A stretch of 33,292 nt of DNA, from contig JAHEMQ010000118.1 in NCBI GenBank assembly GCA_024643555.1, positions 1 to 33,292 of the forward strand, in the 5' to 3' direction. The stretch comes from Crocinitomicaceae bacterium (GTDB taxonomy: Bacteria > Bacteroidota > Bacteroidia > Flavobacteriales_D > Crocinitomicaceae). Under the pieces are notes generated by a model that searched no databases, was not told the origin of the DNA, and was given only the letters and a program-made list of their open reading frames with translations. The position numbers were made by a program, and so were the translations under genes. How positions within the stretch are numbered: position 1 is the first letter of the stretch; each line of letters begins with the position of its first letter. Positions 1,582 through 11,735 of this stretch are shown here, piece by piece.

Positions 1582-2055
1582 ATGTCACAATTAAATTACT
1601 ATACTCCAGAAGGATTACAAAAATTGAAAGATGAGTTGTATCATCTAAAAACGGTTCAACGCCCTTCTATTTCAGAGCAAATAGCAGAAGCACGCGACAA
1701 AGGTGATTTGTCTGAAAACGCGGAATATGACGCTGCGAAAGAAGCTCAAGGTATTTTGGAAATGAAAATATCCAAGCTCGAAACCATCATTTCAAATGCG
1801 AGATTGATTGATGATTCTCAAATGGATAATAGCAAGGTTTTCATCCTGTCAAAGGTGTTAATTAAAAACCAAACCAATGGAATGGAAATTGAGTACACGT
1901 TGGTTGCAGAAAATGAGGCGGATATTAAGCAACGCAAAATATCGATTGAATCACCTATTGGAAAAGGATTGCTCGGAAAAAAAGTTGGTGAAATTGCCGA
2001 AATTCAAACGCCTGGTGGAGTTATGAATTTTGAAATTATTTCGATCTCTAGGTAA
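1582..2055 (+). CDS. greA: Transcription elongation factor GreA
   Basis: GreA binds the secondary channel of RNA polymerase and stimulates cleavage of backtracked RNA, rescuing stalled elongation complexes. The protein is 157 residues from ATG 1582 (MSQLNYYTPEGLQKL), the usual GreA length. A longer frame begins at TTG 1558, but it lies in the leader hairpin and adds residues not typical of the family. The N-terminal coiled coil carries the tip motif GDLSENAEYDAAKEAQ, with the acidic residues that coordinate catalytic Mg. The C-terminal FKBP-like domain includes ESPIGKGLLGKKVGE and ends in FEIISISR. Its TAA overlaps the next ATG (TAATG), implying coupled translation with the HIT gene. Confidence 0.95.
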   Translation: MSQLNYYTPEGLQKLKDELYHLKTVQRPSISEQIAEARDKGDLSENAEYDAAKEAQGILEMKISKLETIISNARLIDDSQMDNSKVFILSKVLIKNQTNGMEIEYTLVAENEADIKQRKISIESPIGKGLLGKKVGEIAEIQTPGGVMNFEIISISR

Positions 2056-2441
2056 TGGCATCCATCTTTTCAAGAATCGTTAATGGTGAAATCCCCTGTT
2101 ATAAAATTGCAGAGGATGATCGATTTTTAGCCTTTCTTGATGTCAATCCTTTGGTTCCTGGTCATACACTTGTCGTACCGAAGCTTGAGCAAGATTACAT
2201 CTTTGACATCGAAGATGAAGAATTTATGGCATTTCAACTTTTTGCGAAAAATGTAGCCAAGTTGCTAAAATCTAAAATTGAATGCAAGCGAATCGGTGTC
2301 GCAGTGATTGGATTAGAGGTCCCTCATGCGCATATTCACTTAATTCCAATAAATACCATTGATGACATCAATTTTAGCCGTGAGAAGCTTAAATTGTCTC
2401 CTGAGAAGCTACGTGAACTAGCAGATAAAATTGCAATTTGA
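2055..2441 (+). CDS. HIT-family nucleotide hydrolase/transferase
   Basis: This 128-residue protein is a complete histidine-triad (HIT) protein of the Hint/PKCI branch. The N-terminus SIFSRIVNGEIPCYKI and the block FLDVNPLVPGHTLVVPK are characteristic, and the active-site triad is PHAHIHLIP near residues 95-103. Such proteins hydrolyse nucleoside phosphoramidates or related nucleotide conjugates in the cytoplasm. The gene starts one base into the greA stop codon (TAATG), so it is probably translationally coupled to greA, an arrangement I recall as common in Bacteroidota. Substrate is unknown. Confidence 0.92.
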   Translation: MASIFSRIVNGEIPCYKIAEDDRFLAFLDVNPLVPGHTLVVPKLEQDYIFDIEDEEFMAFQLFAKNVAKLLKSKIECKRIGVAVIGLEVPHAHIHLIPINTIDDINFSREKLKLSPEKLRELADKIAI

Positions 2442-2442
2442 C

Positions 2443-3426
2443 ATGATGTTACGAACGATTGTTCTGAGTATTATTCTTATTACTGCATTGTCACATTCAA
2501 CTGCACAGCAAATGCGCGTATTGTTTGTCGGCAATAGTTACACCCATTACAATAACATGCCGAAGATGTTTCACGACATTGCTGAATCGAAAAACATCAA
2601 GATGGATGTACATATGAGTGCTAAGTCTAGTCATACTTTTCACATGCACAGCGAACGAATGGACTTGTATCAGGACATTAAAAGTCAGAAATGGGATTAT
2701 GTTGTGCTACAAGGATTCAGTAGAGAATTAGCGACCAGTTATGCCACGATTGATACGGCTGTCGTGCCTTATGTTCAGCGTATCGTAGATTCTATTTATT
2801 CAAACAATCCGTGTACGAATATCCTATTGTATGAAACATGGGGATATGAAAAAGGTTTCCCAGAGGACTCGGTAAATATGAATTACCAAATCATGAGTGA
2901 CCATATTCACCAGGGGTATTTATACTTATCCCAAAAATTTGATTTCCCCATCGTGCCCGTTGGAAAAGTATGGGAAACTGTGAAGGAAAATAATCCGAGT
3001 ATTAATTTATACAATGAAGACCTTCAACATCCATCGAAATACGGTTCCTATTTAGCTGCATGTAGTTTTTACGCGGCAATCTTTAAAATGAGCCCTCTAT
3101 CGGCTTATTCAGATGGACTCAATATTGAGCAAGCGAAATACATTCAAAATACGTCATTTACAGTTGTAGATCTTAATTTAAATCGTTACCTGTTAAGTCG
3201 AAATGTAATTTCTGTCAAGTCAACGAGTAAGGATGCAAAATACCAAGCAGAATGTTCTGCAAATTATCCGAAGGCAAAAAGTATTGTTTGGAATTTTGGG
3301 GATGGAAAAACGGCAAATACGTTTCAAACGAAACATGTGTACACGAAACCAGGAACATACATCATTACCATTACCATCCAAGATAGTTGTGGCGAACGAA
3401 TCATTAAGAAAAAAGTTGTTTTTTAG
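2443..3426 (+). CDS. Secreted SGNH/GDSL-type hydrolase with C-terminal PKD domain
   Basis: Starting at ATG 2443, one base after the HIT stop, the product is 327 residues. A signal peptide (about 1-21, ending STAQQ) is followed by VLFVGNSYTHYNNMP, where GNS at residues 30-32 is the block I nucleophile region of SGNH hydrolases. VVLQGFSRE and a late QHPSKYGSYLAA segment (His as the probable catalytic base) complete the fold. Residues ~265-327 form a PKD-like domain with WNFGDGKTA and YTKPGTYIITI. It is likely an exported esterase acting on carbohydrate or lipid esters; the substrate cannot be told. Its last codon overlaps the stop of the convergent gene by four bases. Confidence 0.82.
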   Translation: MMLRTIVLSIILITALSHSTAQQMRVLFVGNSYTHYNNMPKMFHDIAESKNIKMDVHMSAKSSHTFHMHSERMDLYQDIKSQKWDYVVLQGFSRELATSYATIDTAVVPYVQRIVDSIYSNNPCTNILLYETWGYEKGFPEDSVNMNYQIMSDHIHQGYLYLSQKFDFPIVPVGKVWETVKENNPSINLYNEDLQHPSKYGSYLAACSFYAAIFKMSPLSAYSDGLNIEQAKYIQNTSFTVVDLNLNRYLLSRNVISVKSTSKDAKYQAECSANYPKAKSIVWNFGDGKTANTFQTKHVYTKPGTYIITITIQDSCGERIIKKKVVF

Positions 3427-4538
3427 TTGATTCCCAGAAGCTGATTGGTGAACTTCTTTATCGGGATCAAGATAAACCCGAGAATGGCACGGATTTGATC
3501 TAAGAAAAAAACGAAAATCACAAAAAACAATACGAATCCAAGGGTATAAGGAACAATTTGATGCGCATTTAATCGTTCGTGAAAATAATGTGTTAGTCCT
3601 CGCCCTGTAATACTTCCGTACAAAATAATCATGTGGAGGATATAAATGCTCAAAGTGTTTTGACCAATTTTTAAAAATAAGTTTGGTTTTTTAATGTGGA
3701 GCACATAGGTTTCAAGTGCCAAAAGGATTGACAGCACCATAAAAACCATTCCTAGTTTTTCAAACAACCAATCCATACGATACAAATTTACTTGTTCAAA
3801 AATGGAGCATTCACCAAACAATAACAAACATTTTTTACTCAAGGTATAGAGCACAAAGCCAATGAAGAATCCACTTAAAATGAAGATAGGAGATTTTACT
3901 TTTTCTTTGAATTGAAATAAAATCACACCAATCATAGCCCCAAACATCGTATATCCCATGTGTGGAGTGATTGGGAAAAGAGAGTGTTTTCCATGAAAAA
4001 TGTTTTGAAGGAACATGGGTGCTTTTGCTGGCCAAAACTGCCCTTCAGGAAGCAATCCAAAGTACAAGTAGCTAATGAATAGTAAAACACCTGCAGTTGC
4101 GTAATACATCCACAATGGAATGACTTTAATCCATCTTGATATGCCATACAAACTAATGATGGTGAAAATCCCAACTCCAATGCATTGTAGGACGTGAAAC
4201 GCATAATACTGGAGTAAATACCCCCAAAATAACAATTCAATCACGCGCTTTAATCCTTTACGGACACGCATATTATTCCAAAAAGTAGTTTTGTCATTGC
4301 CGAGCAGCAAATAGGTAAAAACGATACCCGTAACAGTTAAAAAGACTGGCGACGTAAATCCACGGATAAATTTCCAGTAGTAGTAGATTTGGTTCGACTC
4401 ATCCCTTAAGTCCAACGCCAATGAATCATGAACGAAATGTCCTTCCAACATCAAAAGAATTGCGATCGAACGTGCGATGTCAATAAAATATAAGCGTTGA
4501 TTTGCTTGATTATTGGCTGGAATTGTAGCTTGATTCAT
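3423..4538 (-). CDS. DUF1624/HGSNAT-like multipass membrane acyltransferase (copy 2)
   Basis: This 371-residue polytopic membrane protein has about ten hydrophobic segments. It opens with RLYFIDIARSIAILLMLEGHF, where the D-x-A-R-S core and H match the first block of the heparan-alpha-glucosaminide N-acetyltransferase (DUF1624) family. FIRGFTSPVFLTVTGI, FHVLQCIGVGIF and GQNTLSIYILHMI are other family-like blocks. Known relatives move acetyl groups across a membrane to sugars. It is a tandem paralogue of the adjacent upstream gene and overlaps it by four bases (ATGA). An Acyltransferase_3 assignment is a less likely alternative. The acceptor is unknown, but the position downstream of two T9SS-like genes suggests modification of a surface glycan. 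Confidence 0.75.
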   Translation of the reverse strand: MNQATIPANNQANQRLYFIDIARSIAILLMLEGHFVHDSLALDLRDESNQIYYYWKFIRGFTSPVFLTVTGIVFTYLLLGNDKTTFWNNMRVRKGLKRVIELLFWGYLLQYYAFHVLQCIGVGIFTIISLYGISRWIKVIPLWMYYATAGVLLFISYLYFGLLPEGQFWPAKAPMFLQNIFHGKHSLFPITPHMGYTMFGAMIGVILFQFKEKVKSPIFILSGFFIGFVLYTLSKKCLLLFGECSIFEQVNLYRMDWLFEKLGMVFMVLSILLALETYVLHIKKPNLFLKIGQNTLSIYILHMIILYGSITGRGLTHYFHERLNAHQIVPYTLGFVLFFVIFVFFLDQIRAILGFILIPIKKFTNQLLGIN

Positions 4539-5680
4539 AGTTCAGATTTCATGCGCAAGTTACGAAAGAATGATTTAATAGAAGGCAAATACTTAACGAG
4601 ATAAGCGAAAAACACAAGAAATAGAAGCGCTCCTAAAAAGGAAAAGTATCCGGAAAGTTTGGCTTGAATTAAGTCACGTAGGCTATAACCTACTAAAGCA
4701 CCATAAAGTAAGATGGCATGTGCGACATATACAAAAAAGGTGTTTTGTCCCATTCCAAGAAAAACTGGATTTTTTGAAATTTTCCATTCACTCATCGGAA
4801 TAAACACCGTAAATAAAAGGAATACAAATCCTAAACGATCAAAGTACCATAGATTTTGAGGATGTTTTGAAAGTTGATACTGTGGCGTGAGCCATGAAAG
4901 GAAAGTAAAAAGCCAACCAATCATAAACGCACCTATGGAAATGAAAAGGGTATATTTTATAAGTCGTTTTTTGTTCTCATGTAACCTTAAAAAGGCAATA
5001 AGTGAACCGAAAAAGGCACCGAAAAACACGTAACCCATCCATGGAAAAATCGAGAATTCCGTTTCAGGTCCTTGAATCATGTTTTGAATAAATGCAGGAA
5101 AATTGGCTGGTAGAAATCCTTCTGTCGAGCGAACGAAAAAGGTTCCAACGAAAAAGCATAATCCAACGCTCACATACATCCAATGAAAGGGAATTCGCAA
5201 TTGAAGAGCGAAATACGTGAGTAAGATTAAACTCAAAATCCCAAGTCCAATGCACTGAAGAACGTGGAACGTGAAAAAATGAGGATTGAAATTCCCCTGA
5301 AAATAGTACAGGATATATTTAAAGTTGATCTGAAGGGCATAACCAATTAACACCAAAAGAAGTCCACGATTCACTCCTTTCCTCACGCGTTTTAATTCCC
5401 AAAAACGAAGGTATTGATTGTTTTTTAATTGCAGGTGCAAAAGGTAACTAAAAACAGTTCCTGAAATCGTGAAAAACAAGGGAGCGGTCAGTCCGCGCAT
5501 AAATCCCCACGCATTAAATAGCAAATTACTCGAATGTCCATTTTTGAATATTTCTGACATGTAATAGTCGTATTCCACATAACTCATGGAAATAAAATGA
5601 CCTTGTAACATCATACAGATGGCAATACTTCTACCAAAATCAATAAATTGAACACGAGGTTGACTTACTTTTTGTTCCAC
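4535..5680 (-). CDS. DUF1624/HGSNAT-like multipass membrane acyltransferase (copy 1)
   Basis: This 381-residue protein is the paralogue of the following gene: VQFIDFGRSIAICMMLQGHFIS, FMRGLTAPLFFTISGTVFSYLL, RVRKGVNRGLLL, FHVLQCIGLGILSLI, PWMGYVFFGAFFGSLI and GQNTFFVYVAHAILLYG align block by block with it. The start is GTG at 5680, overlapping the stop of the PorE-like gene by one base (TAGTG on the coding strand), and its stop overlaps the next ATG. This implies a translationally coupled string. About ten transmembrane helices are expected in the inner membrane. The likely activity is transmembrane transfer of an acetyl or other acyl group; the substrate is not deducible from sequence. Confidence 0.75.
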   Translation of the reverse strand: MEQKVSQPRVQFIDFGRSIAICMMLQGHFISMSYVEYDYYMSEIFKNGHSSNLLFNAWGFMRGLTAPLFFTISGTVFSYLLHLQLKNNQYLRFWELKRVRKGVNRGLLLVLIGYALQINFKYILYYFQGNFNPHFFTFHVLQCIGLGILSLILLTYFALQLRIPFHWMYVSVGLCFFVGTFFVRSTEGFLPANFPAFIQNMIQGPETEFSIFPWMGYVFFGAFFGSLIAFLRLHENKKRLIKYTLFISIGAFMIGWLFTFLSWLTPQYQLSKHPQNLWYFDRLGFVFLLFTVFIPMSEWKISKNPVFLGMGQNTFFVYVAHAILLYGALVGYSLRDLIQAKLSGYFSFLGALLFLVFFAYLVKYLPSIKSFFRNLRMKSEL

Positions 5681-7896
5681 TAGTTGTTGATATTGATACG
5701 AATAAATTGTTCTTCCTTGGTTAGTATGTTCACCACTTTAATGGTTTGCACCACGGGCTGATTCATTTTTTTAAGATCAACCGTTACGTTTAATTTTTCC
5801 ATGGCCTTCACTTGTACGTAGGAAGGAAGGTTCATTAACGCTGAATTTCCTTTTTCGATACTCAGCTCAAGAAGTCCTGCCGTTTTGTTTTCCACTTGAA
5901 AGCTAAGCTTCTTAGGTGTTTCTTGTGTTTTTATTTCAAAGCTTGTTTCACTTAGCTCGAAACTCTTGGCGCTGCTGCGTAATTCGATGATTTCAATGCG
6001 ACGTTCTTGGGATGCCGCTTTTGAATAAACTGAATTTTTCTGATCATAATAATCGTCGCTTGTTTCCTTGTTGGCCTTTAATTCTCCCATGGGAACTTCT
6101 ATGAATTCCAATACAGGATTTTCGCCAAGCATATACGCACCAAAGCGACCTTGTTGTACCTCTTCGAAATAATTTTTTAAAGACTGAATACGTCGTTTTG
6201 TTAAGTGCGTATTGTAATCTGTTTTAGCCAATGGACTAGCAAATCCTTGCACCATGAGTTGTACTCGGTTTCCTTTTTGTAGTTCGAACCAGACTTGATT
6301 GGTGAATTTTTCCAACTCATTCTTTCCTTTTTGAACTTCCTCTTTAAAAAAGGAATCGAGAGCGTCAACCGCTTGTTTCGATTGAATGGAATCGCGTTGT
6401 AAGCCAACTTTGGTTTTGTAGCTGTCGAATTGTTCAGCATATTTTTGAAAAGATTCCAAGTAATTTAAATTGGTAAAATCGGAAGTTGTATTGGCGTCCG
6501 GTTGGTCGTTTTCAAAGTATAAGCGTATCGGTAGTTTGACCACTTCATATGGCAAAATATGGTTGATCTGATCCTCACTTTTTTTGGGTTTTCTTCTCGG
6601 GATTTCAGCCATGTAAATATCACTGCAGCAAGTCGGATTCTTCGCATACAGACTTCCTAGTCGATTCGACGACACAAAAGTTGAGTCACCATATTGAAAA
6701 TAATATTGATCGGCAGCTGGACTATTTATGGGTAAACCCACATTGATTGGCGCTCCAAATTTGCCATTTCGATATTCTGAATAAAAGACATCTTGTCCGC
6801 CAAAGCCTTGGTGCCAACTCGATGAAAAATAAAGTCGATTTTCAATGGTGTCGTACCACGGACAAATGTCATTCTCTATCGAGTTTATATTCGAAACATT
6901 CTCGACTCGTGTTGCTTGACCTTGATTGTCTAAAACCGCATACCAAATGTCCATTTCACCTTTTGTGCCAGTCCTATTGGAAGAAAAAAACAACACATTT
7001 TCATTTCCTAATTTGCTAAAATGTGGCATACTCGAATTAAATCCTGATAGATTCACCATTTGATTTAAGGAGTCTAACATTTTCCATTGACCAAGCGAAT
7101 CGCGTTTACCAAAGACAATTCCACAAGTATAACGATAACCTTGATCGCTACAAACACTATAATAGAAATCGAATTCATTCAAGAAACTCGCATTTGCAAT
7201 GCTTTTGCCTTTCGGAATTAATGCTTGCAGTTTTCTTGCTTTTTGTTGGTTGGAAGGAAAAGGAATTTCGTATAAAGCTGTATGGTAACTCGGGGAATAG
7301 ACTTCCTGAAGTTCTTCATTGATAGAATCTGCTTTCAGGGAGGAGAAATACAATGCTCCATCGCGAATGGTGTGCCCAAATTCGGCATCAAAGGAATTGA
7401 CATCCTCTCCTAAAGCCTGTATTTGAATGCCAATATCAGGTCCGATTTTCATTTGTTTCAAGGCCCAATTGGTTGACTCAACTTCTTGTGCTGCTTTTTT
7501 ATAGGGATAATTTTGCATGTCCTCTGAATAAATTTTCTTAGCTGTTTTGAAATGATCTAAAGCTTCTTTGTATTTCCCATTTTGTTTTTCCATGAGAGCG
7601 AAATTAAGAATGGCCTCCGGGTATCGTTCCGCATCGTCGTCCTTCATGTAAACCAATGAATAGAATCTTTCTGCTTCCTTGTAATCCTTGTAAATACGAT
7701 TGGTTTCGGCTATTTTCCAGATTAAATCTAAATTTTCTGGATCCATCACCAAGGCTTGATTGTAATAATCCAAGGCGTAATAATAATCACCTTTATTATA
7801 TTGTTGATCTGCAAATGCCAACACATCTTTTAATTTGGCTTGACTGAAGGACAGATAGGGAAGAAGTAGAAAACCAATTAGATAAAATCTGGACAT
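5680..7896 (-). CDS. PorE-like TPR / PD40 propeller / OmpA-like outer-membrane protein
   Basis: This 738-residue protein has a signal peptide (1-18, ending LSFSQ). Next come TPR repeats (~20-150; GDYYYALDYYNQALVMDPEN), then WD40-like PD40 repeats (~170-430) with FFSSNRTGTKGEMDIWY and YFSSSWHQGFGGQDVFYSEY, then TCCSDIYMAEI. An OmpA-like segment follows at about 545-635 (VQGFASPLAKTDYNTHLTKRR). The domain order matches PorE, which links the type IX machinery to peptidoglycan. Two oddities: the OmpA segment has GFAS where the usual GHTD carries the peptidoglycan-binding Asp, though the later Arg pair is kept; and ~100 residues of all-beta sequence follow the OmpA domain. It overlaps the PorP/SprF-like gene by 19 bases, so the two products probably act as a pair. 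Confidence 0.85.
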   Translation of the reverse strand: MSRFYLIGFLLLPYLSFSQAKLKDVLAFADQQYNKGDYYYALDYYNQALVMDPENLDLIWKIAETNRIYKDYKEAERFYSLVYMKDDDAERYPEAILNFALMEKQNGKYKEALDHFKTAKKIYSEDMQNYPYKKAAQEVESTNWALKQMKIGPDIGIQIQALGEDVNSFDAEFGHTIRDGALYFSSLKADSINEELQEVYSPSYHTALYEIPFPSNQQKARKLQALIPKGKSIANASFLNEFDFYYSVCSDQGYRYTCGIVFGKRDSLGQWKMLDSLNQMVNLSGFNSSMPHFSKLGNENVLFFSSNRTGTKGEMDIWYAVLDNQGQATRVENVSNINSIENDICPWYDTIENRLYFSSSWHQGFGGQDVFYSEYRNGKFGAPINVGLPINSPAADQYYFQYGDSTFVSSNRLGSLYAKNPTCCSDIYMAEIPRRKPKKSEDQINHILPYEVVKLPIRLYFENDQPDANTTSDFTNLNYLESFQKYAEQFDSYKTKVGLQRDSIQSKQAVDALDSFFKEEVQKGKNELEKFTNQVWFELQKGNRVQLMVQGFASPLAKTDYNTHLTKRRIQSLKNYFEEVQQGRFGAYMLGENPVLEFIEVPMGELKANKETSDDYYDQKNSVYSKAASQERRIEIIELRSSAKSFELSETSFEIKTQETPKKLSFQVENKTAGLLELSIEKGNSALMNLPSYVQVKAMEKLNVTVDLKKMNQPVVQTIKVVNILTKEEQFIRININN

Positions 7897-8861
7897 ACGC
7901 GATGAATGATTTGTTTTGGTTTAAAACGACTGATGACATATTTCACGGCAATTTCGAATCCACCTCGGGTCTGGCTTGCAGGGACTAACTTTGAGAAATT
8001 CACGTCATAACTTAGCCCACAATATAAGGGGCCTTTTTCGTAAGCTAAATTGACAGAAAAAGCATCTTTATTGCGCCACCATAATCCGCCATAAAGGTTT
8101 ATTTTATCACGGCTTGAAAACGCATAACGGGCAAGTCCTCCCACCATTAGTTCTTGGTATTTTCCTTGTTTGCTATATTGCATACTAGGAAGAATCGTCC
8201 AATCTGAATTTAAAAGGTAACTCGCTTTACTGAAGACATTCCAACGGACATCTCTAAGGACAATTTGGTTATAGAATCCTTGGTTCGGCCGATTCAAGTT
8301 AAATGCGGAAATGCCTGAATGGAAGTGCCATTTTGCGGATAATTGCCAATCGTCGACGATTCCGAGTCCCAAGGAGAAGTTTAGTTTCGAATTACTTTGA
8401 AAAGATTCATTACTCGGTGCATTCGGATCGAAAATGTAGCCATTGTATTGATTATCAAAATAAAGAGAAGACCAATTGATTTGACGGTAATTGAATCCAA
8501 TGTTGAGTCCTGGACGAAAGGTATGCGTAGGCAAAAATCCGAAGGTCATTGGCCGGTTGATATTCGCTTGGCATTCCATTGTTCTTAGTTTGCCATCACC
8601 TACTTGGTCGTGAAATGCCAACAAACCGACACCCCAACCCTTGTAACGACCGTCAACTGAAAAAGAGTTGGTGCTAAATGGAACGGTTACACTGCGCCAT
8701 TGATTTCGGTAGTTTGTGATGAGACGAAGGTCTTCTCGAAACGCTCCAGCATTTCCAGGATTTTGAAATAAAGGATTGTCATTAAATTGTGTCCAATGAA
8801 TATCCTGCCCATATATCATGGTGTGAACAAAGAAAAGAAATATGAACGATTTGGACTTCAT
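7878..8861 (-). CDS. PorP/SprF-family type IX secretion outer-membrane protein
   Basis: This 327-residue barrel has a short signal peptide (MKSKSFIFLFFVHTMIYGQD) and then the family signature DIHWTQFNDNPLFQNPGNAGAF, RLITNYRNQWRSV and VDGRYKGWGVGLLAFHDQVGDG. It ends with beta strands and GGFEIAVKYVISRFKP. PorP/SprF proteins are outer-membrane partners of T9SS substrates; SprF is needed for surface display of the gliding adhesin SprB. The overlap with the PorE-like gene supports a functional pair. There is no T9SS cargo gene beside it, unlike many sprF genes. The ATG lies within a long inverted repeat (see 8859-8898), and no TAnnTTTG box is found in the 45 bases upstream. Confidence 0.88.
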   Translation of the reverse strand: MKSKSFIFLFFVHTMIYGQDIHWTQFNDNPLFQNPGNAGAFREDLRLITNYRNQWRSVTVPFSTNSFSVDGRYKGWGVGLLAFHDQVGDGKLRTMECQANINRPMTFGFLPTHTFRPGLNIGFNYRQINWSSLYFDNQYNGYIFDPNAPSNESFQSNSKLNFSLGLGIVDDWQLSAKWHFHSGISAFNLNRPNQGFYNQIVLRDVRWNVFSKASYLLNSDWTILPSMQYSKQGKYQELMVGGLARYAFSSRDKINLYGGLWWRNKDAFSVNLAYEKGPLYCGLSYDVNFSKLVPASQTRGGFEIAVKYVISRFKPKQIIHRVCPDFI

Positions 8862-8915: not shown

Positions 8916-9593
8916 TGTTAGGGAAACAGGGATGATTTTACCATTCAAAAAACGCTGCGCATTTAAAGAAAAATCAGTGATAAATTCAGCCATCTGTATT
9001 GGGTTTAAAGGCGCCTGATATCCTGGGAACGCTTGTTCGAGCATTTCAGTTTGAACGGCACCTAAACACAGGCAATTCATTTTGATGTTGGTGTCTTTGT
9101 ATTCTTCAGCAAAAAGCTCTGTAAAGGAACACAGTGCAGCTTTAGATGTGGAATAAGCGGCCAATCCAGGAAACTTCATACTACCTTGAAATCCACCCAT
9201 GGAGCTGATATTGACTATATGTGCTCCCTCGGGATTCAATTTAGGCAACAAGCATTGAATACTTTCCATGACACCAATCACATTGACTTGATAAGAGGTA
9301 TTGAAATCCGCATGAGTTAATTCGGGAAATGGCTTATTTACCAAGTATCCGGCATTTTCAATTAACACGTCAATCTGAGGAAGTTGGCCCATCAGTTTTG
9401 CAAGTTGTTCATACACGTTTTGACTCAGGTCCAAGGCAAAGCAATGTACATTATCTTGATCAAACATCGCTTCCATGCGTTCAATGTTACGCGCAAATGC
9501 ATAGACTTGATGATCGGAATTCTTTGCGTATGTTTTCACGAGTTCTGCACCAATTCCTCGGCTCGCTCCAATAACGAATATGTGCTTACTCAT
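8907..9593 (-). CDS. Short-chain dehydrogenase/reductase (SDR family)
   Basis: The product is 228 residues with a complete classical SDR layout. The Rossmann nucleotide motif GASRGIG is at residues 9-15, IENAG follows the fourth strand, and the catalytic Ser lies in VNISSMGG with YSTSK as the Tyr-x-x-x-Lys pair. A PG-type motif is replaced by CLGAVQTEM. It should reduce or oxidise a carbonyl/alcohol with NAD(P)H in the cytoplasm; the substrate is unknown. It overlaps the PaaE-like reductase gene upstream by eight bases, so it is co-expressed with it and might act on a product of aromatic or acyl-CoA metabolism. That link is inference from context only. Confidence 0.88.
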   Translation of the reverse strand: MSKHIFVIGASRGIGAELVKTYAKNSDHQVYAFARNIERMEAMFDQDNVHCFALDLSQNVYEQLAKLMGQLPQIDVLIENAGYLVNKPFPELTHADFNTSYQVNVIGVMESIQCLLPKLNPEGAHIVNISSMGGFQGSMKFPGLAAYSTSKAALCSFTELFAEEYKDTNIKMNCLCLGAVQTEMLEQAFPGYQAPLNPIQMAEFITDFSLNAQRFLNGKIIPVSLTNP

Positions 9594-10659
9594 CGAAACT
9601 TACAATTAATTCGTCACTTGTCGGAAAGGCTTGACACGTTAAAATGTAACCTTGTTTCACTTCTTCGTCAGTTAATGAGAAATTAGAACGCATTTTAGCT
9701 GTTCCTTTCAAAACTTTTGCACGACAAGAACAGCACACACCACCTCGACAAGAATATGGCGCATCCAAACCATTTTTCTCTGCCAATTCAAGCACGCTGT
9801 GTTGCTCACCTTTCATGTCAAAAGAGGCTGTTTCGCCATCAATCATGACTTTGACTTTGCTTTCTCCTGCAAATGAATCCGTTGCTGTACTTTCCTTTGC
9901 CTCCAATGGCGTAAATAACTCAAGGTGAACTTTGTCTTTGGAAACGCCAAAAAAGGCAAGGCATTCTTGCATTTCTTCCACAAGTCCGATTGGACCACAG
10001 ATGTAAAAAGCATCTGCTTGCAGCAAACTTAAGTTCGCTTTAATTTCTTCAGTGAAACGTTCTTTACTTATTCTTCCTGACGCAAAACCTTCCAGCACTT
10101 CTTGGCTTAAATAATGGGTGCAGTGCACATTGGACAAGGCCGCTAATTCTGATTCAAATAGAATAGAATCCTTGGTTTTGCTACCATAGAACAAATGCAT
10201 TTGAGTGGCACTTGTTAAATGTTTTGCCATAGAAAGAATCGGAGTAATCCCACTACCTGCAGCAATACAGACGATGTTTTTCGCACTTGGACTCAATTTA
10301 AAATTTCCTTCCGGTTTCGAAATCCAAATCGGGAAATCGGTTGAATTTTGATCATTCAGAAAATTGGAGACAAGTCCTTTGTCGAGGCGCTTTATAGCAA
10401 CCGCTAATGGTTCCGATGGACCACTACAAATGGAGTAGGAGCGACGTTCTTTTTTACCGTTAATGTACACTTCTAAATTGATATACTGTCCTGGAACAAA
10501 GGTAAATTCTTGCTGAAGTTCAGCTGGAATTTCAAACGAAACCTGAACAGCCTCTGCATTCAAATGCTTCAGTCCATTCATCGTGATCGCATGAAATCCT
10601 CTGCTGATTTTTTCAGAAGAAGGTTTTTCACTTTTTTTAAATCGGTCAAATAATCCCAT
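9586..10659 (-). CDS. Second PaaE-type FAD/2Fe-2S oxidoreductase
   Basis: This 357-residue protein has a ferredoxin-reductase module: RRSYSICSGPSEP binds FAD, AAGSGITPILSMA is in the NAD(P) domain and FYICGPIGLVEEM lies near its end. A plant-type [2Fe-2S] ferredoxin domain follows, with cysteines in YSCRGGVCCSC (C-x4-C-x2-C) and the fourth Cys in GYILTCQA. The order FNR then ferredoxin is that of PaaE. It has an extra ~18-residue charged N-terminus (FDRFKKSEKPSSEK) and is a diverged paralogue of the neighbour just upstream, from which it is separated by five bases. It may serve the PaaABC epoxidase, or another oxygenase or desaturase. Confidence 0.85.
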   Translation of the reverse strand: MGLFDRFKKSEKPSSEKISRGFHAITMNGLKHLNAEAVQVSFEIPAELQQEFTFVPGQYINLEVYINGKKERRSYSICSGPSEPLAVAIKRLDKGLVSNFLNDQNSTDFPIWISKPEGNFKLSPSAKNIVCIAAGSGITPILSMAKHLTSATQMHLFYGSKTKDSILFESELAALSNVHCTHYLSQEVLEGFASGRISKERFTEEIKANLSLLQADAFYICGPIGLVEEMQECLAFFGVSKDKVHLELFTPLEAKESTATDSFAGESKVKVMIDGETASFDMKGEQHSVLELAEKNGLDAPYSCRGGVCCSCRAKVLKGTAKMRSNFSLTDEEVKQGYILTCQAFPTSDELIVSFDE

Positions 10660-10664
10660 AATGC

Positions 10665-11735
10665 TTAATCGTCAAATGAAACAAGCACTTCCTCACTTGT
10701 AGGGTGTGCTTGACAAGTTAAAATGTATCCCGCTTCTACCTCTTCGGGTGTTAAAGCATAATTTAGGTCCATGCGGACGGTTCCTTTTAGAACTTTGGCT
10801 TTGCATGTACAACAAACGCCACCCTTACACGCGTAGGGAACATCTGAACCAGCCTTGTATGCCGCATCCAGAATGGTCATTCCAGTTGAATCCAAGGGAA
10901 ATTCAATCGCATCATCATCCATAATGACTGTTACGAAAGAGGATACTTGCACCTGTGTTTCGGTATTCTTCTGCGGGGTATTTTTTGATGCGCCAGAATG
11001 GAATAATTCAAAATGGATGCTTTTCTCGGACAGTCCTTTTTGAAGCATCGCTGATTTTACATCCAAAATCATTTGTTCTGGACCACAAATAAAGACATCG
11101 TCGATTTGCTCATTTTGCAAAAAAGCCTGATGCAAATCTAAACATTTTTGCTCGTCAATTCTTCCTTTTTGAATGGCATTTCCAAGGTTTTCACGCGAAA
11201 ATAAATGAACCAGACAAAGGCGATTTAAATATTCGTTTTTCAAGTTTTCCAATTCTTCTCGAAAAATCACCTCTGAAAAACCTTGGTTTCCATAAAACAT
11301 GGTCACGTGACTTTTAGGCTCTTCTCTTAATATCGATTTTAAAATCGAGAAAATGGGTGTTACTCCGCTACCTGCAGCAAAAAGCACATAGGACTTAGCG
11401 TTGTTTGGATTCGTTTCAAGCCTGAAATTCCCCATAGGATTCATGACGTCAAGTTGTTGCCCTTCTTTCAGTTCAGTCAAGGCAAAGCTTGAAAAAACAC
11501 CTTGTTCCACTTGTTTGATTGCAACTCGCCATTCCTTGTCGGATGGAGCTGAACAAAGGGAATAAGATCGTCGAACATCTTCTCCATTTATAATACTCCT
11601 TAACGTAAGGTATTGTCCGGATTGGAATTGAAAATCAGATTGTAATTCTTGGGGTAATTCAAAACTGATGGAAACACAGTTTTTAGTCTCTTTGCGTATG
11701 TTTTTGATCTGAAGAGAATGAAATTTTGGCGTCAT
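10665..11735 (-). CDS. paaE: Phenylacetyl-CoA epoxidase reductase subunit PaaE
   Basis: PaaE passes electrons from NADPH through FAD and a [2Fe-2S] cluster to the PaaAC di-iron oxygenase. At 356 residues it matches the usual length, and the start KFHSLQIKNIRKET resembles the start of E. coli PaaE as I recall it. FAD motif RRSYSLCSAP, nucleotide motif AAGSGVTPIFSIL and FICGPEQM come first. The ferredoxin domain has YACKGGVCCTC and a final Cys in GYILTCQAHP. Of the two tandem copies, this promoter-proximal one looks more like canonical PaaE. It is divergent from paaABCD across a 134-base spacer holding both promoters and a dyad, so joint control is likely. Confidence 0.88.
   Translation of the reverse strand: MTPKFHSLQIKNIRKETKNCVSISFELPQELQSDFQFQSGQYLTLRSIINGEDVRRSYSLCSAPSDKEWRVAIKQVEQGVFSSFALTELKEGQQLDVMNPMGNFRLETNPNNAKSYVLFAAGSGVTPIFSILKSILREEPKSHVTMFYGNQGFSEVIFREELENLKNEYLNRLCLVHLFSRENLGNAIQKGRIDEQKCLDLHQAFLQNEQIDDVFICGPEQMILDVKSAMLQKGLSEKSIHFELFHSGASKNTPQKNTETQVQVSSFVTVIMDDDAIEFPLDSTGMTILDAAYKAGSDVPYACKGGVCCTCKAKVLKGTVRMDLNYALTPEEVEAGYILTCQAHPTSEEVLVSFDD

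Follow-up and report, generated by a model that had tools for sequence, protein, structure and literature searches.

A matched acyltransferase-SGNH gene pair at a Crocinitomicaceae envelope locus, a candidate split O-acyltransferase

A tandem pair of predicted membrane acyltransferase genes, AT1 and AT2, lies between a PorP/PorE-like gene pair and a gene for an SGNH-family enzyme on a 33,292-nucleotide (nt) stretch of DNA from a Crocinitomicaceae bacterium (contig JAHEMQ010000118.1, assembly GCA_024643555.1), the whole of which we call the window. With which of these neighbours do the acyltransferases work? An earlier note on this DNA looked to PorP and PorE, and suggested that the two acyltransferases act on a glycan or an anchor in the setting of cargo of the type IX secretion system (T9SS). 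We find that the better-supported partner is the SGNH gene (2446-3426), which encodes a DUF4886 protein and was not listed in that note, rather than PorE; the linkage to PorE and PorP that the note described holds. Gene trees show matched cassettes of acyltransferase (AT) and SGNH genes, which are inherited or exchanged as a set at one fixed site, with the porE-like gene on one side and HIT-greA on the other. From sequence and structural models we think it probable that AT1/AT2 and the DUF4886-PKD SGNH protein constitute a split transmembrane O-acyltransferase, encoded by matched two-gene cassettes. The genes in question are the following.

PorV-family gene (+), on the same side as the GreA, HIT and SGNH genes and converging on AT1
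1582..2055 (+), GreA (PF03449 103.1 bits, PF01272 89.8 bits), a conserved flank and control gene
2055..2441 (+), HIT-domain gene (PF01230 62.4 bits), the far boundary of the AT-SGNH site
2446..3426 (+), SGNH (DUF4886) enzyme with a C-terminal PKD domain (PF16227 and PKD above cut-off)
3423..4538 (-), AT1, alpha lineage, 371 residues, predicted 10-transmembrane (TM) AT3/HGSNAT-like acyltransferase (Pfam, AlphaFold model, motifs)
4535..5680 (-), AT2, beta lineage, 381 residues, GTG start, predicted paralogous acyltransferase (Pfam, motif residues)
5680..7896 (-), PorE-like protein, 738 residues, probably outside the acyltransferase unit (OmpA-like C-terminal part judged by eye)
7878..8861 (-), PorP/SprF-family outer-membrane protein, a linked neighbour (TIGR03519 145.2 bits, PF11751 115 bits)

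The SGNH gene and AT1 stand tail to tail with an overlap of 4 nt. On the minus strand, PorP overlaps the PorE-like gene by 19 nt, the PorE-like gene overlaps AT2 by 1 nt (the AT2 start codon begins on the last base of the PorE-like stop) and AT2 overlaps AT1 by 4 nt, an arrangement that suggests coupled expression. Two paralogous membrane acyltransferases of about 375 residues that overlap each other and the PorE-like gene are thus present as first described.

Co-inheritance of the acyltransferase and SGNH genes

Gene neighbourhoods were mapped in the best 80 of 167 family-wide loci, a set that overlaps the genus set described below and derives mostly from Crocinitomicaceae or Flavobacteriales metagenome-assembled genomes (MAGs); since close relatives occur among the loci, the counts are not independent. 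An AT adjoins an SGNH gene in 71 of the 80 loci, 61 times convergently and 10 times on the same strand, and adjoins a PorE-like gene in 66. Both neighbours are present in 60 loci. In 6 loci SGNH has no adjacent PorE, and in 5 more the contig ends before the PorE side; 5 loci have PorE without SGNH, and in 1 with PorE the contig ends before the SGNH side; 3 loci have neither. The PorP/PorE linkage is therefore kept in many genomes, and the outcome that the earlier note named as refuting its proposal, a linkage found in no other genome, did not occur.

AT and SGNH remain side by side where the PorE neighbour has been lost and where the genes have been re-oriented or inverted. PorE, AT and SGNH all run in one direction at L124 and L151-L153, the SGNH gene sits between two ATs (PorE-AT-SGNH-AT) at L142, L145, L147 and L148, and an SGNH-AT-AT series runs against PorE at L123. 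At L113, L114 and L178 the AT-SGNH pair lies away from PorE altogether.

Trees and Mantel tests were based on the 32 loci that carry a single AT and a single copy of each of five other genes; the trees are quick-search trees, and several of these loci are close relatives. The AT type (alpha, beta-1 or beta-2) changes 3 times on the SGNH tree, and 8 times on the trees of PorE, PorV and HIT and 7 times on that of GreA. The beta-2 changes forced by starred branches number 2 for SGNH, 7 for PorE, 6 for PorV, 5 for GreA and 2 for HIT. In partial Mantel tests, AT and SGNH distances remain correlated given PorV, GreA, HIT and PorE (r = 0.32, p = 0.0005, the floor for 2000 shuffles), and AT and PorE distances given PorV, GreA, HIT and SGNH do not (r = -0.01, p = 0.59). 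The plainest single case is genome G024, whose PorE groups with that of G013 (99*), whose AT falls in the beta-2 clade and whose SGNH, in the opposite orientation, groups with those of L151/L153 (94). Such matched pairs could result from cassette exchange or from matched loss of ancient duplicates; by either route, a given AT goes with its own SGNH. L179 (7383-9360) has only one AT, separated from HIT by two SGNH genes that point in opposite directions; the locus may represent an intermediate stage of a cassette exchange or a matched duplication.

Within the genus, one or both AT copies are found in 26 of 37 genomes, at an identical site wherever the contig shows the neighbours, and ATs also occur across the family, a spread beyond what chance would give. 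Two copies are present in 14 of these genomes (one pair on two contigs, one cut by a contig end), a single AT1-like copy with 53-63% identity in 4 (one cut by a contig end), and a single beta-2 copy with 36-39% identity in 8, five of which are in the AT tree, two more in the type-change tree, and one, G034, assigned by similarity only. The linked SGNH has a relative in 25 of the 37 genomes (that of G034 is cut by the contig end), and 24 genomes have both AT and SGNH. AT occurs without SGNH in G006, a true gap on the map, and in G029, where the contig ends in the AT; SGNH occurs without AT in G018, at a contig edge. In five genomes that have neither gene, PorE abuts HIT (L061-L064, L066). The interval between the PorE-like gene and HIT is a site at which the AT-SGNH unit is present, different or absent.

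Fold, residues and predicted location of the two enzymes

AT1 matches PF01757 (Acyl_transf_3) at 55.0 bits and PF07786 (HGSNAT_cat), which we take to be the former DUF1624, at 49.7 bits; its paralog AT2, about 32-33% identical, scores 41.8 and 54.3 bits (cut-offs 31 and 22). The alignment of AT relatives (A4) has 62 distinct rows; another, A1, includes one short row (L038, 149 bases). Three Pfam families match the 62 members at E 0.001, among them HGSNAT_cat in 61 and Acyl_transf_3 in 58, and MBOAT (PF03062) is not one of the three. Searching PDB sequences with the AT profile returned nothing at E 1, and a fold search was needed. The best PDB match of the AT1 AlphaFold model (pLDDT 90.4) is HGSNAT (Z 23.4, rmsd 4.0, 302 residues aligned), followed by GWT1 (Z 17.3), with all remaining rows at Z <= 6.8. 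As modelled, AT1 has the 10-TM fold of the transmembrane acyltransferase (TmAT) superfamily.

Residues D20, R23, H34, F66, G71, R91, G200, T295, H302 and Y307 are invariant in 62 of 62 AT relatives, and AT2 has the same motif residues. The TmAT/AT3 motifs DxxR (TM1), Rx10H, FxxxxG (TM2), the TM3 Arg and the TM6 Gly are likewise present in all 62; position 299 in TM9 is Tyr in 50 and Phe in 12. Residues of the TmAT acyl-CoA site are given in the available part of PMC12423673, and further motifs in that of PMC9833829. Within the AT3 motif RxxR (TM3), the first Arg is present in 62 of 62 sequences, and the second position holds Lys in 60 and Arg in 2, so these proteins are not AT3 in the narrow sense, which takes both arginines. 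PMC12423673 gives the first Arg alone as common to most of the TmAT superfamily, and we therefore file the ATs as TmAT, AT3-like. HGSNAT has Asn where the ATs keep the His of DxxRx10H, and by that residue as well they are AT3-like. Y307 is the only invariant Tyr among the 62 ATs; helix order and sequence would place it at the periplasmic end of TM9. Pfam matches, modelled fold and motif residues together agree with the earlier prediction of inner-membrane acylation machinery.

AT1 (alpha) and AT2 (beta) belong to separate paralog lineages in the AT tree, where beta-1 ATs group with the first copies (97*) and the beta copies of two-AT loci tend to have longer branches; the grouping of beta-2 with AT2 depends on the midpoint root and on a branch with support 87 and length 0.014. 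The alpha lineage, and beta-1 relatives of AT2, each occur alone at other loci, so that one copy suffices in many genomes. This rules out an obligate AT1-AT2 heterodimer and weakens the earlier suggestion that two copies imply a heterodimer; two acceptors or a hetero-oligomer are possible, though neither is required.

The window SGNH protein matches PF16227 (DUF4886) at 51.1 bits (cut-off 26.7), as do 47 of 50 relatives at E 0.01. These 50 distinct rows (alignment A3) comprise 44 of 67 listed SGNH open reading frames (ORFs), near neighbours omitted, together with the window and genus loci, and the catalytic triad S31, D192, H195 is present in all of them. Fold matches of the model of the window protein (pLDDT 94.7) run from a DUF4886 crystal structure (4i8i) at Z 25.2 through a putative SGNH hydrolase at Z 21.4 and esterases at Z <= 17.7 to PatB at Z 15.2. 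Of 247 genomes of the class, the window's own family included, 88 have DUF4886 proteins. DUF4886 is listed with no known activity in a 2022 review (PMC9487903), the one paper with that term in the open-licence literature searched.

AT-linked SGNH proteins differ from their unlinked DUF4886-PKD paralogs in length (320-373 residues as against 387-573, mostly 412-455) and in their export signals. The T9SS type A sorting domain TIGR04183 matches 19 of 26 distinct unlinked long paralogs (E 0.01) and 0 of 50 linked SGNHs, the window protein among the latter, and a simple lipobox pattern is likewise found in 0 of 50; the unlinked set (A6) was a picked one, omitting the far homologs L191/L192, the broken frame L219 and the short L213. 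The window protein has an apparent N-terminal signal sequence, judged by eye. With neither sorting domain nor lipobox, the linked SGNHs should stay periplasmic, on the side where an inner-membrane AT would deliver acyl groups.

A further difference concerns the block II Gly, which aligns by sequence with residue 62. It is Gly in 26 of 26 unlinked paralogs, and among the 50 linked SGNHs it is Ser or Asn in 25 (Ser62 in the window) and Gly in 25; the Ser/Asn forms account for 25 of the 30 SGNHs from alpha or two-AT loci. Passages of PMC12148441 describe a change of this Gly to Ser or Asn in PatB, said to favour transfer over hydrolysis, and also in one OatA; it is not a trait of all transferases. 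The change would support a transferase role, for the alpha-type pairs only.

Around the long DUF4886 paralogs read, no AT-profile match was found, and a general DUF4886-AT link was set aside; an ORF flanking L210 with an R-x10-H pattern proved to be FeoB.

Proposed mechanism, known systems and rival explanations

In the mechanism that we propose, the AT would bind acyl-CoA on the cytosolic side and pass the group through its pore so that it reaches the periplasmic side, perhaps by way of an acyl-Tyr intermediate on Tyr307, by analogy with OatA. The SGNH enzyme would accept the acyl group on Ser31 and pass it to an envelope glycan, which its PKD domain may hold; linked SGNHs that lack a T9SS sorting domain would remain within reach of the inner-membrane AT. 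That a matched set is apparently exchanged as one cassette suggests a mode of cell-envelope decoration not described so far.

Two major systems are named in the available part of a 2025 paper (PMC12148441): an MBOAT protein with a separate SGNH protein, and an AT3-SGNH fusion, of which OatA is an example where the AT3 domain acetylates a Tyr that then serves the SGNH domain. A split AT3-type protein with a separate DUF4886 SGNH would be a variant on both. Like PatA/PatB and AlgI with AlgJ/AlgX, it would pair a membrane acyl exporter with a separate periplasmic SGNH in two genes, and the PatB likeness extends to the block II Ser/Asn of half of the linked SGNHs and to the fold match noted above. 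The membrane partner there is an MBOAT protein, however, and here a member of the AT3/HGSNAT (TmAT) superfamily; the SGNH domain of PatB is DUF459, whereas that of the window is DUF4886 with a PKD domain. With OatA and OafA/OafB the pair shares an AT3-type membrane domain bearing DxxRx10H and an SGNH domain with a Ser-Asp-His triad. Those proteins are AT3-SGNH fusions, whereas the genes here are separate and mostly convergent (separate ORFs in the window, and no AT-SGNH fusion ORF in the family-locus maps), and the best PDB fold match of AT1 is HGSNAT. Stand-alone AT3 proteins (WecH, OacB) and HGSNAT share the 10-TM core and acyl-CoA-site residues; stand-alone AT3 proteins are thought to carry out the whole reaction alone, whereas the window ATs have a co-inherited, linked SGNH gene.

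According to the accessible text of a 2022 review (PMC9558356), WecH, an AT3-only protein, could replace PatA and work with a separate PatB, which makes the chemistry of an AT3-type protein with a separate SGNH plausible; the same text raises the question of whether an AT3-only protein requires a partner, be it an SGNH or something else. In the open-licence literature, as far as its available text extends, we found no description of an AT3-type exporter with a separate SGNH protein, nor of a system of this composition, in keeping with the earlier note. The locus is a natural, co-inherited pair of this kind. Since some loci have only alpha ATs, some only other types, some two ATs and some no SGNH, the partner question and the specificity of the pairs can be tested directly. 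The locus further suggests a route by which an exported esterase could turn into a periplasmic transferase. A tentative extension, which we hold to be possible and less likely than not to be right in full, is a third envelope-acylation architecture: an AT3/HGSNAT-type exporter would have been joined by a DUF4886 SGNH derived from a T9SS-secreted surface esterase that, having lost the sorting signal, was retained in the periplasm. The exchange of matched variants at one chromosomal site would then change acylation in the manner of O-antigen modification genes, possibly under pressure from phages or grazers.

Several observations weigh against a split acyltransferase. The AT-HIT correlation given PorV and GreA (r = 0.42) is as strong as that of AT with SGNH, and the co-absence test comes down to 3 independent pairs (sign test p 0.25). 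G006, the genome of L115, has no match to the linked SGNHs (A2) anywhere, and the stretches read around distant AT homologs (L144, L157, L159, L180-L183, L059) contain no SGNH-profile match. Conversely, G188, a genome of the same family, has a short AT-type SGNH (L221, 8475-9464) whose neighbours are genes for glycine cleavage, a cyclase and an enoyl-CoA hydratase; that genome gives no AT match at E 1e-30. Among the four long paralogs read from the window's own order, the sorting domain is matched by one (L189), so that its loss is inferred from the wider class. Three further observations of this sort also favour the most credible rival, a less probable one to which we nevertheless give appreciable weight, in which the AT alone acylates an exported glycan and the SGNH acts in the periplasm as an esterase that takes the groups off again, as Ape1 does beside PatA/PatB. 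Outside DUF4886, the nearest named folds belong to acetylxylan esterases and other esterases; 20 of 20 SGNHs from loci with only non-alpha ATs keep the hydrolase-type Gly in block II; and ATs without an adjacent SGNH occur at L112, L115-L117 and L130. Co-inheritance of AT and SGNH fits such a writer and eraser equally well. What speaks for a transferase is that block II, always Gly in the unlinked paralogs, has Ser or Asn in 25 of the 50 linked ones, as in PatB and one OatA; the missing sorting domain also puts the SGNH on the AT side, though an eraser could be periplasmic too.

The proposal of the earlier note, that the two ATs acylate an anchor of the anionic lipopolysaccharide (A-LPS) type handled by PorP/PorE, now appears improbable. 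PorE does adjoin the AT in most loci, the gene overlaps suggest coupled expression, and SGNH distance tracks that of PorE weakly given PorV, GreA and HIT (r = 0.22, p = 0.01), a result that also makes the picture of SGNH-AT pairing less clean. AT, however, does not track PorE, as both the Mantel test and the 8 type changes on the PorE tree indicate; AT-SGNH persists away from PorE at L113, L114 and L178; and PorE-like genes lacking an AT are found in the genus (L060-L068) and in the order, where 9 of 9 loci read have PorE-like orthologs with no adjoining AT and only one of those genomes, G058, has an AT match, weak and elsewhere in the genome. The AT is accordingly rejected as a T9SS part. Moreover, according to PMC9143113, type B cargo is bound and held by PorP-like proteins, and PG1035 was found without A-LPS modification, so that the A-LPS argument does not follow from a PorP-PorE pair. 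About as improbable is a slowly rearranging neighbourhood with no common function. The block PaaE-SDR-PorP-PorE-AT-SGNH-HIT-GreA-PorV is indeed kept in many loci; AT and SGNH nevertheless remain paired through inversion, re-orientation and relocation, and they switch type together while the flanking genes do not. A split acyltransferase remains the reading that we prefer, with PorP-PorE probably a neighbour of the AT-SGNH unit and at most a candidate target; the linkage may exist because all of these genes act on the envelope.

Neighbouring genes

PorP scores well above the TIGR03519 cut-off of 90.55 bits, and its linkage and overlap with the next gene are as described. The name of that gene fares less well: at 74.1 bits against an NF052230 cut-off of 600 it is PorE-like only. 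Stronger PorE matches, all below the cut-off, occur elsewhere in the same genome, such as C80 at 361.6 bits. As 6 of 14 control genomes likewise give matches below the cut-off, weak matches carry little meaning. The genome itself has SprA (2353 bits) and 29 CHU_C matches. The window pair differs from the PorP-PorE-PG1035 type B anchoring complex in having no adjoining CHU_C cargo gene and in having acyltransferase genes attached. In two order-level relatives, a large DUF7948 and CHU_C protein precedes PorP-PorE (L073, 4161-7982; L078, 3372-7403), a cargo-PorP-PorE triplet not seen at the window locus.

About 745 residues is a common length for PorE-like proteins of the family. That of the window has a C-terminal extension of about 95 residues (5680-5980) that is absent from its closest relatives, L033-L035 (642-644 residues); a BLAST search of the extension against the other PorE-like proteins of the set gave no significant similarity.

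Two tandem PaaE-like ferredoxin reductases (9586-10659 and 10665-11735), of which 10665-11735 passes the TIGR02160 cut-off and 9586-10659 does not, stand beside PorP in most mapped genus loci. Four loci titled Polynucleobacter, Chryseobacterium, Sphingomonadales and Chitinophaga (L084, L088, L106 and L110) have the Crocinitomicaceae gene order, and these MAG titles therefore look unreliable. At the left edge of the window, before the PorV-family gene, 3-1513 encodes the C-terminal part of a protein of about 1390 residues. We rejected PorU as its identity: the full-length relative at L036 (1390 residues) has only a weak C-terminal match to PorZ (30 bits, cut-off 260) and no Pfam family at E 0.001. 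The L036 copy (2192-7441) is 84% identical to the C-terminal part present in the window, and many contigs, that of the window included, stop inside this gene.

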